A DNA stretch of 61,326 bases from Pseudomonadota bacterium (GTDB taxonomy: Bacteria; Pseudomonadota; Alphaproteobacteria; Sphingomonadales; SMXR01): contig JADFJJ010000006.1 of NCBI GenBank assembly GCA_022566215.1, positions 1-61,326 of the forward strand, given 5' to 3'. The notes beneath the pieces are model-generated. The model ran no database searches. It worked only from the letters and a program-made list of their open reading frames with translations, and was not told the origin of the DNA. Below, one piece after another: positions 44,217 through 52,605 of the stretch; position 1 is the first letter of the stretch; every line of letters starts with the position of its first letter. The translations under genes and the position numbers were made by a program.

Positions 44217-44247
44217 GCAAAAAAGCGGCTTAGGTGCCGCTTTTTGC
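44217..44247. terminator. Strong bidirectional terminator
   Basis: GCAAAAAAGCGGC, loop TTAGGT, GCCGCTTTTTGC: GC-rich stem flanked by A and T tracts, so it can work on both strands. It closes the beta-oxidation/yjbQ operon on plus and the 34-aa gene on minus. Confidence 0.85.
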
Positions 44248-44295
44248 AAATCTTCCGGTCTTTTCAGCCCGGTTTTGAGGAGAATAGCTGGTTTC

Positions 44296-44400
44296 TTAAA
44301 AAACCTGGGCGAACAGATTGATCAGGTGGTAGGAAAAAGTGGTCCAGTAAACGCCGGTGTAGGCCGTTACGATCATTAAGATGGGGTATGAGACGTTCAT
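44296..44400 (-). CDS. 34-aa single-helix membrane protein (twin A)
   Basis: A 35-codon frame (34 residues plus TAA) starts with ATG preceded by AGAGGAG at 8-nt spacing. The product begins MNVSYPILMIV, is hydrophobic throughout except the ends, has YWTTF in the middle, then conserved H25 and N28, and ends in F. It should form one membrane helix (about 5-32). It is homologous to the gene at 46250-46354: 20 of 34 positions are identical, with the same length and no gaps, and 11 of the 20 shared residues use different codons, strong evidence that it is translated and selected. I do not recognise the family. A terminator lies 49 bp downstream. The 278 bp from here to 44678 hold no gene I can support. 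Confidence 0.75.
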   Translation of the reverse strand: MNVSYPILMIVTAYTGVYWTTFSYHLINLFAQVF

Positions 44401-44678
44401 TGCTTTGCTCCTCTTGTGTTGATTTAAGAGTAGCAACGCTTGTTAAATATCCCCTTAAGGATCAGTTAATCAAAGCTTAACGGGGGCAAAAAAATGAGGG
44501 CCGGTTTTGAGCCTTTAAAAAGTTCAATAAATGGCGGATTTGTGCGCCCTGTGTGGTCTTTCCGGGCAGTCCACAAATCAAGGATCACAGAAAAATAACC
44601 GGAGTTGAGTGATTAATTTCATTAAGATTTGCTAATGGGCGGAGCGTTGAAGTCCCGATTCTCTCCCTGCCTTTCGCC

Positions 44679-45206
44679 CTAAAAGGTTTTGAACCGGCCC
44701 TTGTGAAACAAAAGCGGCGGTTTATCTGTTTCCCGGTAGCGCACCACTTTGGCGACGATGATGATATGATCCCCCCCGGGATAGGTTTTTTCCACCACAC
44801 AGTTCAGGATGCCGCTGCAATTCTCCAAAAGCGGGACCCCTTCGCGGTCCGGGTGGGCCGCCACATCCTCAAAACGGTCCTGGCTGGGCCGGGCGAATTT
44901 CAGCGCCAGCTCCTCCTGGTCCTTACCCAGAATATTGAGGTTGAATTTCTCACCGGGCTTGAAAGAGTCCACCAGACCCGATTCCAGCGTCAGGCACCAC
45001 AAAATCAACGGCGGATCCAGGCTGAGCGAGGAAAAACTGTTGACCGTCAGGCCCGCCCAATGGCCCCCGGGCGCCAGCGAAGTGACGATTGTGACCCCGG
45101 TGGCGAATCCGCCCAGTGCATCCCTGAGTTTCCTGGCAACCTCCGGCAGCCCGGCGCTGTCAGAATCCTCCAGGTCGTACAGGGTGATATGCTCAGGGTT
45201 TTTCAA
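44679..45206 (-). CDS. Flavin reductase-like (FMN-binding split-barrel) protein
   Basis: 175 residues. Family features: RDALGGFATGVTIVTS (about 27-42, FMN phosphate region), GLTVNSFSSLSLDPPLILWCL (about 52-72) and FNLNILGKDQEELALKFA. This is the flavin-reductase/HpaC-like domain, which usually supplies reduced FMN to a monooxygenase or reduces flavin with NAD(P)H. No monooxygenase partner is adjacent. Its start overlaps the upstream MBL hydrolase stop (ATGA), so the two are co-translated. Confidence 0.88.
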   Translation of the reverse strand: MKNPEHITLYDLEDSDSAGLPEVARKLRDALGGFATGVTIVTSLAPGGHWAGLTVNSFSSLSLDPPLILWCLTLESGLVDSFKPGEKFNLNILGKDQEELALKFARPSQDRFEDVAAHPDREGVPLLENCSGILNCVVEKTYPGGDHIIIVAKVVRYRETDKPPLLFHKGRFKTF

Positions 45207-46090
45207 GGGGCCTCAGCCCAATCTTCCATGGTGTTGTAAAGGGTGGTGACAAACCTCTCGCCATTAATGAAAGACCAGCTCCAAACTTCATCAAATTCCG
45301 CGGCCGGATTGGCTGCCAGGACTTCCTCAAGGGTTTTGCCGGAGCTTTTCAGGGATCGAACGCGGCCTCCGATGGTTACCAGCATGTCCAGATATGTCTC
45401 AAGGCCCGCCTTGTCAGTAACCGGGCCATGGCCCGGAATAACAATTGTTTCCTCGTCAATCTTTGCCAGAACCCCTTCAATGGCGGGGATCAGTCCCTTA
45501 AAGCTGCCGCCGCTGTTGGTATCTATGAAGGGAAAGCAGGTGTTGAACATGATATCCCCTACATGCACCACATTGGCTCCTTTGAAATAAATGATGCTGT
45601 CACCGTCGGTGTGTGCGTTCTCGACATGGACGGCCCTGGCCTCAATGCCATTGATGTGAATAGAGACCTGGTCGTTAAAAGTGAGGACCGGGAGGGCGCC
45701 CGCGGAGACCTCTCGCTCAATCAGGCGGGTTCTGACATTGTCATGCGCCAGGATGACCGCCCCCTCCCGGCCAAGGTTTTCATTTCCGCCGGTGTGATCG
45801 CCATGGAGGTGGGTATTCAGGACAAACCGAATGGGGCCGTCATTAACCTCACCGATAAGGGCCAGAATTTCAGGGGTCAGGGGAGCCGTTTGATCATCGA
45901 TTAAAAACACCCCGTCCTCTCCGGCCGACACGCCGATATTGCCGCCCCCGCCAGATATGACGTAAAAATTATCTTTCAGGCGCTCCATCCTGACATCGCT
46001 AAAATCACAGACATGGGCGTTGGCCGGCTGGGTCATTAACACCGGACCACCCAGCATTAAGGCGAATAAACCTCTATTGAATATCTTCAT
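45203..46090 (-). CDS. Exported MBL-fold hydrolase
   Basis: 295 residues with a signal peptide (about 1-25, ending QPANAH). The metal motif is LNTHLHGDHTGGNENLG (H-x-H-x-D-H), with further ligands in HVENAHTDGDSIIYF, VVHVGDIMFN and VIPGHGPVTDK. It belongs to the periplasmic SoxH/quinoprotein-relay-like or B3-like MBL hydrolases often annotated as beta-lactamase-like; no evidence points to beta-lactam hydrolysis. The substrate is unknown. Co-translated with the flavin reductase, with the two 34-aa membrane proteins on either side. Confidence 0.85.
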   Translation of the reverse strand: MKIFNRGLFALMLGGPVLMTQPANAHVCDFSDVRMERLKDNFYVISGGGGNIGVSAGEDGVFLIDDQTAPLTPEILALIGEVNDGPIRFVLNTHLHGDHTGGNENLGREGAVILAHDNVRTRLIEREVSAGALPVLTFNDQVSIHINGIEARAVHVENAHTDGDSIIYFKGANVVHVGDIMFNTCFPFIDTNSGGSFKGLIPAIEGVLAKIDEETIVIPGHGPVTDKAGLETYLDMLVTIGGRVRSLKSSGKTLEEVLAANPAAEFDEVWSWSFINGERFVTTLYNTMEDWAEAP

Positions 46091-46249
46091 CGGCGGCTCC
46101 TGTCTTTGATGGTGTGCGCCATGAAGATTGACCCACCCGGGTTATTTTTTCAAGACAACAAACACCAAATAAGGCTAGAAGCCTGTAGCAAGTTTAATCG
46201 AGGAGGAAATTTATGAAAGGAAACCAACGGGCTGAAGCCCTGGCGCGAG

Positions 46250-46354
46250 TTAGAATATCGCAGCCAGCATATTAACGAAGTGCAGCGTAAATGTCGTCCA
46301 ATAGAGGCCGGCATAAAGCGCAACGATCATCAATATTTTAAAACTTACGTTCAC
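46250..46354 (-). CDS. 34-aa single-helix membrane protein (twin B)
   Basis: A 35-codon frame (34 residues plus TAA) with GTG start and GGAGAG upstream. The product begins MNVSFKILMIV, has YWTTF at the centre and ends in F, matching twin A (44296-44400) at 20 of 34 positions without a gap. The invariant residues are M1-S4, I7-V11, Y14, G16, Y18-F22, H25, N28, A31 and F34. Differences elsewhere are conservative (V/L, L/F, I/V). One membrane helix is predicted. It is on the same strand and directly upstream of the MBL hydrolase/flavin reductase pair, so it could share their transcript. Confidence 0.75.
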   Translation of the reverse strand: MNVSFKILMIVALYAGLYWTTFTLHFVNMLAAIF

Positions 46355-46705
46355 AGCAAAGCTCTCCGTTTTCTAATGCGCCCGTAAAATTAAACGTCAA
46401 AACTTAAAAAAATATTAACTTCTTTTATGGGTTTGCATTTTTCTAATATCCTGAATACTTTAAAATAGTAGATAAATAGTTAACAAAACAAATAATTTTA
46501 AAAATTATTACTTTATGAATTAATATTTACATAGACGAAAAGGTGATTTTTTCTATAAAATACTTGGTTTTTCAGGCAAAAAGCCATTTTTTTTACTTGC
46601 TTAATAAATAAAGTTACAGAAAAATCATAATCTTCGGAGAAATAAATTTCAAATTTCTGCCATTATTAGGTAGATAAGTTACATAAATCAACGGTATCGA
46701 CTAAT
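46355..46705. other. AT-rich gene-free stretch upstream of ddl-like gene
   Basis: No convincing gene. From about 46420 to 46700 the sequence is far richer in A and T than the rest of the window, with many A/T runs. A short hairpin GGC-AAAAA-GCC followed by ATTTTTTTT (about 46577-46595) is a weak terminator candidate. It must hold the promoter for the Ddl-like operon and that for the minus-strand 34-aa gene, but no single -35/-10 pair stands out. Confidence 0.6.
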
Positions 46706-50397: not shown

Positions 50398-51456
50398 TTA
50401 CAGCGGATTTGAAAGACCACTTTCAAAATCGAGCCCAAGTGACCTCGCCCAGGTTATGGTTTCTCGAATATCTTCCCCGAAGATGTTAAGGATATTTTTC
50501 TTTTCTTTGATTTGTTTGCTTCTGGAAAATATTATCCTTGGGTCTTTGGAATGCATATTAAATGTTGGTCCATTTAAAATTTCCGCCTGTTCTCTCCTGG
50601 AAAATTCCAAATCATAAAAATCACTTAATTTTTCCAGAGTTTCCTCGGGGTTCCGCAGAAAAGTAGCGCTTTTGAGAGATTTTACTTTTTGGCCACTATC
50701 CAGAACTATGGTATGTTGAAGAAATTTCATTTGCAAACCCCATCCCAGAGATATTTTCTGCAAACCAGTTAAAGGCCTTATTTGTTCAAGTTCGAGGGGT
50801 AAATTATCTGCAAAATCCCGAACCAAATCTTCAAGGATGTGGGCAATCGAAGCAGCCCGCTCATTTCCGCCATGCAAAATAGATATCAAAAAACTTTCCA
50901 GGTCGTCGTACAAAATCAGAACCCTTTCAGTTTGGGGACAATCAAGAATTTCCGGCAAAAGATTATTGGCCCCGTTAGAAGGTTTAAAAAGTATTTTTTC
51001 ACCCTTGTGAAAAGAACGGGATAGTAAATATAGCGTTATATCCCTTAAGTTTTTCCAGTTCGGATCAGCCGGATCAAAATTGGCTGAAAGCCGCTTGAAG
51101 GCGGCAAGCCCTAACAAGGCATGGGGTTCTTTCAGTGATAAATTCTTGCCCGGCAAATCCAGACATCTGGCCACCAATGTCGAACAGCAAAAAGAGGTAT
51201 GGAAAAGATAATTGGCTCGATTAGATTTTTGATGAAATTTGGCACTGTGGAGGGCCTGGATAATCTGAGGTGCTGGAATAACATCTTTCTTTTCGTTCTG
51301 GCCCAGGGTTCTGTAATCCAAAAAGGAAAGCGTCGACAGCTCTGACCTGGTTGTCGCTACAAATTCAAAAAGTCCTTTTTGCAAATCCATGGAAAAAAGG
51401 AAATTGTTTGGATCTGACACAAAGCTGACCATTTGATCCCGAATATCAGTCATCAT
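50398..51456 (-). CDS. Sulfotransferase-like P-loop protein (tandem copy 1)
   Basis: 352 residues, no signal peptide. The segment NYLFHTSFCCSTLVARCLD (about 105-123) looks like a modified 5'-phosphosulfate-binding loop, followed by LSLKEPHALLG and FKPSNGANNLLPEIL. This family is usually called hypothetical or sulfotransferase-like; PAPS binding is likely but not certain. It is a paralogue of 51562-52605 with the same ending (GLDF..GLSNPL against GLDY..GLSNPL). Composition is less GC-rich than its neighbours. A second ATG follows the first and either may be used. It is convergent with the Mur-ligase operon. Confidence 0.6.
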   Translation of the reverse strand: MMTDIRDQMVSFVSDPNNFLFSMDLQKGLFEFVATTRSELSTLSFLDYRTLGQNEKKDVIPAPQIIQALHSAKFHQKSNRANYLFHTSFCCSTLVARCLDLPGKNLSLKEPHALLGLAAFKRLSANFDPADPNWKNLRDITLYLLSRSFHKGEKILFKPSNGANNLLPEILDCPQTERVLILYDDLESFLISILHGGNERAASIAHILEDLVRDFADNLPLELEQIRPLTGLQKISLGWGLQMKFLQHTIVLDSGQKVKSLKSATFLRNPEETLEKLSDFYDLEFSRREQAEILNGPTFNMHSKDPRIIFSRSKQIKEKKNILNIFGEDIRETITWARSLGLDFESGLSNPL

Positions 51457-51561: not shown

Positions 51562-52605
51562 CTACAGCGGGTTTGAAAGACCTCCTTTATAATCAAGCCC
51601 CAGATCACGGCACCATTTGGCGGCCTCGGTAAACTCTTTCTGGTTTTCCAGGATAATTTTCAGGGTTTCCTTATTTTGGGTCTGCGGCGAATAGGCCTTG
51701 CCGGGCTCCTTTGAATGCGCTGTCATGACCGGCCCGGAGGCGACAGCTTCAAGGTCTTTCCGGGCAAAGCCCAAATCATAAAACGCATTCAGCCGGATTA
51801 AAATATTCGCGGGATCATCCAGAAATCTTTGGCAATCAAGGGTCGTTACTTTTTCAGGAAAAGACCCGGCTGCAGCCTCAAAAGCTTTCATCTGCAGGGT
51901 CCAGGCCAAAGCTGCCCGTTGCAGCGCCGTCAGCTCCGAAGGATCCGCCAGATCAACACCTTCGCCGAAATCCCTGATAAACAATTTCAGGATTCCACTG
52001 GCATAACTGAAACGGTCTTCGCCGCCGCTGATCACCGCCGCCAGAAAATGGTCCAATGAGCTGTATAAAAGCACCACTTTATCAGTACCCGGATAATCCA
52101 GAATTTCCGGCAGGATATTGTTTGCCCCGTTTGAGGGTTTCAGCAAAATCCCCTCACCCTCGACGAACCGCCGCGACAAAAGCCTTAAAGTCAGGTCGCA
52201 CCAATTATTCCACTGGTTGCTCCGGGCATCAAAATTTTTATTGCGGCGTTTGAACCCGGAAAGACCCAGCAGAGCAAAGGGCTCTTTAAGTGAAAGGTTT
52301 ATCCCAGGCGTATCCAGGCACCGGGCTATCAGGGTTGAGCAGCAAAACGAAGTATGAAAAAGGTAGCACGCCTTAAGGAGGGGCTGTTTGGTCATTTCCC
52401 CTCTCAGGGTTTCCAGGACCGCCGCACCCGGCAATTCTGTTTTTTTATGCCGGGCCTCGATTGCCCTAGTATCAAGGAAGGCCTTATTCGATACTTCCTG
52501 GCGGGACATACGGATAAATTGAAACCTTCCTTGTCCCAGGTCGAGGCCAATCAGAAAATTGGCCGGGTCCGCCAAAAATGCCGTTATCTGTTCCGGGGCC
52601 GCCAC
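51562..52605 (-). CDS. Sulfotransferase-like P-loop protein (tandem copy 2)
   Basis: 347 residues, paralogous to the preceding entry along its whole length: CYLFHTSFCCSTLIARCLD (about 102-120), INLSLKEPFALLGLSGFKRR, LLKPSNGANNILPEILDYPG, and the same GLSNPL end. The two genes are 105 bp apart in the same orientation, so a tandem duplication is clear. The divergence at many positions suggests it is old, and the two may have different acceptors. No obvious acceptor gene is adjacent, apart from the Ddl/Mur-ligase cassette downstream on the opposite strand. Confidence 0.6.
   Translation of the reverse strand: MAAPEQITAFLADPANFLIGLDLGQGRFQFIRMSRQEVSNKAFLDTRAIEARHKKTELPGAAVLETLRGEMTKQPLLKACYLFHTSFCCSTLIARCLDTPGINLSLKEPFALLGLSGFKRRNKNFDARSNQWNNWCDLTLRLLSRRFVEGEGILLKPSNGANNILPEILDYPGTDKVVLLYSSLDHFLAAVISGGEDRFSYASGILKLFIRDFGEGVDLADPSELTALQRAALAWTLQMKAFEAAAGSFPEKVTTLDCQRFLDDPANILIRLNAFYDLGFARKDLEAVASGPVMTAHSKEPGKAYSPQTQNKETLKIILENQKEFTEAAKWCRDLGLDYKGGLSNPL

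Follow-up and report, generated by a model that had tools for sequence, protein, structure and literature searches.

A small, apparently genus-specific family of unannotated 34-residue putative membrane peptides with CtrA-type promoter boxes

Two frames of 34 codons, here called alpha and beta, were found in the window, which is the whole 61,326-bp stretch of DNA analysed. On sequence evidence these are real genes, and they belong to a family that has been unannotated until now and has no relative seen outside the genus. The best reading is that alpha and beta are members of a small genus-specific multi-copy family, and that each is a free-standing transcription unit. Their function is proposed tentatively. 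At a little less than an even chance, the products are genus-specific, stand-alone, CtrA-controlled single-helix membrane micropeptides, which might modulate a membrane partner in the cell cycle. Proteins of fewer than 50 residues are routinely missed and are hard to prove. Here, joint selection on the protein and the promoter supports the two genes, and suggests a regulator from sequence alone.

The two genes and their relatives

The genes and their associated features are listed in Table 1. A preliminary description of this DNA had reported the two frames with their strand, length, start codons and Shine-Dalgarno sites, and all of these are present. It had also reported 20 gapless matches in 34 positions. 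In the ungapped alignment, 20/34 columns are identical when the GTG start of beta is read as Met, and 19/34 when it is read literally. Different codons are used at 11 of the 19 non-start residues shared by alpha and beta. When the genome was searched with alpha as the query, beta was found with an E value of 1.3e-9, and the alignment score of the pair is 10.8 SD above shuffles. Therefore, the resemblance is not due to chance.

Table 1. Coordinates of the two genes and of the features around them in the window.
Feature	Position	Strand	Details
Alpha gene	44296..44400	-	34 codons + stop, ATG start; product MNVSYPILMIVTAYTGVYWTTFSYHLINLFAQVF
Alpha Shine-Dalgarno site	44408..44413	-	GAGGAG; identical in the G001 orthologue
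Alpha promoter/leader	44401..44485	-	85 bp; 0 substitutions and one 1-bp indel vs G001
Alpha CtrA full-site consensus	44455..44469	-	TTAACTGATCCTTAA; 5' end at -69 from ATG
Alpha second, overlapping site	44466..44480	-	TTAAGCTTTGATTAA; 5' end at -80
Hairpin between alpha and yjbQ	44219..44245	.	GC hairpin flanked by A-run/T-run; bidirectional terminator by inspection
Beta gene	46250..46354	-	34 codons + stop, GTG start; product V/MNVSFKILMIVALYAGLYWTTFTLHFVNMLAAIF
Beta Shine-Dalgarno site	46362..46367	-	GGAGAG
Beta possible -10 element	46387..46392	-	TAATTT, inferred; lies 11 bp past the CtrA-type site; conserved in G002
Beta CtrA full-site consensus	46404..46418	-	TTAATATTTTTTTAA; 5' end at -64

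The window belongs to genome G000 (1.89 Mb, 100 contigs). The other genomes of the genus compared were G001 (MAG B28T1B5) and G002 (MAG N074bin56), which are both incomplete. A third G000 copy, alpha' (contig C43, 180-281), is 97% identical to alpha. The surrounding block of ~333 bp, which takes in the upstream region, shares 95% identity with window positions 44248-44580, but its flanks differ. In G001, an alpha orthologue adjoins yjbQ, and a second copy that has diverged further, delta, is flanked by dcd and a TIR-domain gene. In G002, a beta orthologue lies upstream of the ddl-like gene, as it does in G000, and a further copy, gamma, is broken (the dcd, TIR and ddl-like labels were assigned by reading translations). 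The start codon position is common to all intact copies. Among the findings that would speak against the genes, the preliminary description had named a lack of homologues elsewhere and a broken frame in conserved DNA. Homologues were found in both G001 and G002, and the frame is kept in every intact copy; gamma has a TAA stop at codon 18.

Relatives were also searched for beyond the genus. An order-wide search of 401 genomes found no homologue, and its one chance-level match (E 0.039) lay within a 461-codon frame. A class-wide search of 385 genomes found none that was convincing; the weak partial matches had E values of at least 0.008. The only matches of a GTDB-wide pattern scan were the two genus-mates. 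No family relatives were found in IMG/VR viral contigs, phages and plasmids. Five other genera of the taxonomic family gave no relative, and no convincing small hydrophobic frame at the syntenic place upstream of ddl; this synteny test was limited in genomes G005 and G007, whose contigs carry only part of ddl. The 34-residue products had no match to Pfam, NCBIfam or PADLOC profiles. The best PHROGs match (E = 0.04) was at chance level, no relative was found among solved structures by PDB sequence search, and Rfam gave nothing above its gathering score. These protein searches bear out the earlier statement that the family has no known match.

Selection and predicted structure

Judged from the codon changes, natural selection maintains the peptide sequence. 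Between G000 and G002, beta has 15.5 synonymous changes at 22.5 sites and 8.5 nonsynonymous changes at 76.5 sites (dS 1.88, dN 0.12, dN/dS 0.06, Fisher P about 1e-6). Alpha has a dN/dS of 0.05 between G000 and G001 (P 0.002), and the ratio for the G002 beta vs delta is 0.13. It had been claimed that the protein is conserved rather than the DNA. This held when tested on both orthologue pairs (dN/dS 0.05-0.06). In the more divergent pairs, the DNA similarity detected by blastn ends at the frame edge. Beta matched locus L009 over exactly the frame 46250-46354, separately from the ddl match, and its match to locus L010 lies wholly inside the frame (46265-46354).

AlphaFold2 with the family alignment predicted one helix (residues 5-33, mean pLDDT 90). 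The best 19-residue Kyte-Doolittle mean is 1.0-1.6, and with such moderate hydrophobicity, a membrane helix is probable rather than certain. By these predictions, the 34-residue product is probably a membrane-embedded helix. The polar residues Y14, Y18, T21, H25 and N28 are visible by eye on one side of the helix. The conservation moment of the helix is not significant (p = 0.47), and the conserved residues form no statistically distinct face. Thus, from the earlier picture of a single hydrophobic helix with a polar face, the single helix is retained as a prediction and the face is not.

Promoter regions and CtrA

In Caulobacter, TTAA-N7-TTAA is the full CtrA motif, and such a site is interpreted as an activating one when its 5' nucleotide is at -39 (PMC4287350). 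Sites of this consensus, which the preliminary description had not mentioned, were found upstream of both genes (Table 1). The two alpha sites share one half site, which gives three TTAA boxes with an 11-bp period. The beta orthologue in G002 has the site TTAATTGTTTTTTAA, likewise at exactly -64. The window holds three matches to TTAA-N7-TTAA, all 50-80 bp upstream of alpha or beta; chance alone would give 0.76 matches over its whole length. Local dinucleotide shuffling gave P = 0.0002 for the alpha double site; the sites of beta and of its orthologue had P values of 0.046 and 0.018, respectively. The box of beta begins ~38 bp before the transcription start inferred from TAATTT, which agrees with the activating position described for Caulobacter (PMC4287350). 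The two genes are therefore like the CtrA regulon genes of that study in their full-site consensus, and beta is also like them in this spacing. The papers searched described no comparable 34-residue membrane peptide; for alpha and beta the control is predicted.

The promoters are also conserved. In the two genes neighbouring alpha, 11-14% of synonymous sites differ between G000 and G001, vs no substitutions in the 85-bp promoter. The chance of zero substitutions is about 1e-5 by our own arithmetic, with a uniform rate assumed. Between beta and its orthologue, the three TTAA boxes are identical at 12/12 bases, and the remaining upstream positions at 18/43 (hypergeometric about 2e-4, also our own arithmetic); ddl is saturated at synonymous sites between the same genomes (0.73). 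As expected for CtrA-regulated genes, the boxes lie close upstream of the start, they are conserved beyond their surroundings between orthologues, and the genome encodes CtrA (see below). Delta and the broken gamma have no TTAA-N7-TTAA upstream. The motif is not enriched genome-wide in G000, with 34 sites vs 55 for the reversed pattern used as the control. One site alone would be weak evidence, because the motif is short and AT-rich, and the region upstream of beta is AT-rich too.

CtrA itself is encoded in G000 (G000:C8:4703-5380), with a match above cutoff to the NCBIfam equivalog NF045991. It shares 69% identity with Caulobacter CtrA, and the NCBIfam match serves as an independent check. 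Sites of the same form were found in G000 135 bp before ctrA, 169 bp before mraZ, and immediately ahead of a CcrM-like gene (CcrM was its best-matching model, below cutoff). CtrA was not found in G001 or G002, both incomplete genomes.

An exact block, TTGTTAACTATTTATCTA, is common to G000 (window 46460-46485) and G002 (L009, ~2750). It lies between beta and ddl in diverged surroundings, and is possibly a promoter element of ddl.

Genomic context

Neither alpha nor beta lies in a conserved operon, since the flanking genes differ between genomes. Alpha is followed by the hairpin and the convergent yjbQ, with no co-directional gene downstream; the hairpin was not among the results of a consensus scan. 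The flavin reductase gene lies 280 bp upstream of alpha, and a YceI-like gene takes that position in G001. Beta is divergent from ddl. Downstream of beta is an MBL gene in G000 (~160 bp away), and a convergent Mur-ligase-like gene in G002. No genes of any complex are linked in the flanks of alpha, beta, alpha', delta or gamma. The preliminary description had noted that the two frames flank a flavin reductase/MBL pair. A functional link to this pair was rejected, as neither gene keeps the pair as a neighbour in the relatives. The pair is incidental, because the G001 alpha adjoins the YceI-like gene and the G002 beta has neither of the two.

In locus L008 (6197-6743), an RNase HII-like N-terminal part is fused to the C-terminus of the flavin reductase at a shared IVAKV stretch. 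The fusion frame is probably a misassembly in that MAG.

Alternative explanations

Type I toxins such as Ldr, Ibs and TisB are short, hydrophobic and often multi-copy. Alpha and beta might likewise be short membrane toxins, present in several copies and silenced by antisense RNA. The short hydrophobic peptide, the several dispersed copies per genome, the intergenic positions, the one recent 333-bp duplication with its upstream region and the broken gamma are all consistent with such a system. It is nevertheless unlikely. The peptides have a near-neutral charge and no Lys-rich tail, and they are under strong purifying selection at the protein level. The inferred 5' leader is short, Rfam gave no match at its gathering score, no sign of an antisense promoter was found, and the boxes resemble a transcription-factor promoter. 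The small membrane subunits of the CydX/KdpF type have a comparable length and a single helix, and the peptides could be accessory subunits of a respiratory or transport complex. A single helix in which aromatic and polar residues are conserved, together with selection on the protein sequence, would fit this role. However, no operon link to any complex was found in any genome compared, and the family is missing from the other genera of the taxonomic family, although such complexes are widespread. Several copies that differ markedly from each other occur per genome, and searches of PDB, Pfam and NCBIfam gave no match. Because the genes are genus-restricted, multi-copy and stand-alone, a small-subunit role is disfavoured and seems quite improbable.

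The peptides might also be real membrane proteins with another function, for example a stress-related one, under another regulator, the CtrA-type boxes being due to chance. A short, AT-rich motif that is not enriched genome-wide and is missing at delta points in this direction. The boxes of both promoters are conserved, with fixed positions while other sequence diverges, which makes chance an unlikely source. Leader or attenuator peptides that govern a downstream gene would be short intergenic frames too, and beta lies before the MBL gene. This reading was rejected as highly improbable, since alpha faces the convergent yjbQ with no co-directional gene downstream, and the gene downstream of beta is not kept in G002.

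Proposed function

CtrA control of alpha and beta is most likely, because their promoters carry CtrA-type boxes, and a regulatory role is favoured over a subunit role for the same reason. Thus, of the small-subunit or regulator roles offered in the preliminary description, the multi-copy, stand-alone genes argue against the former and the boxes point to the latter. In the mechanism proposed here, in which CtrA binding, the direction of regulation, insertion in the membrane, the partner and any effect are all inferred, each gene would form its own transcription unit and yield one 34-residue membrane-helix peptide. CtrA would most likely turn the genes on (or off) at a particular cell-cycle stage. 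The peptide would most likely enter the inner membrane as a single helix and bind a membrane partner through its conserved Y14...YWTTF...N28 stretch. Envelope growth or division would then be modulated in the manner of SidA.

SidA of Caulobacter crescentus is a 29-residue inner-membrane division inhibitor, which binds FtsW and is SOS-induced (PMC4211646). Alpha and beta are similar to it in size and in their alphaproteobacterial origin, and would also be similar in the single membrane helix predicted for them. However, SidA is SOS-induced and belongs to Caulobacter, whereas alpha and beta have CtrA-type boxes and several copies. Any functional likeness is conjectural. By this analogy, a regulatory peptide acting on a membrane protein, as SidA acts on FtsW, is the mechanism held most likely. 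If CtrA drives alpha and beta, there would be a direct link between the cell-cycle master regulator and a very small effector in the membrane. The family would then be a test case for the recruitment of new micropeptide genes into an old regulatory circuit. It is conceivable, though rather doubtful, that these lineage-specific membrane micropeptides, driven by CtrA, make up a hitherto unseen branch of output from the alphaproteobacterial cell-cycle circuit, and that once in every cycle they directly control either the divisome or a membrane enzyme.

Other observations

A plus-strand frame of 42 residues, MLNRLNYVAVRDYQKVKFSDYSLLQRLYREPVFKKTRVKSAA, lies just 3' of alpha' (L011, G000:C43, 348-473). 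Weak relatives with E values of about 3e-4, which have an RLxREPVF motif in common, lie at G000:C40:22231 and G001:C54:7441. The frame may represent another small-protein family of this genus that has escaped annotation. In the window, two adjacent minus-strand genes (50398-51456 and 51562-52605) encode similar proteins of ~350 residues, which are tandem paralogues by inspection.
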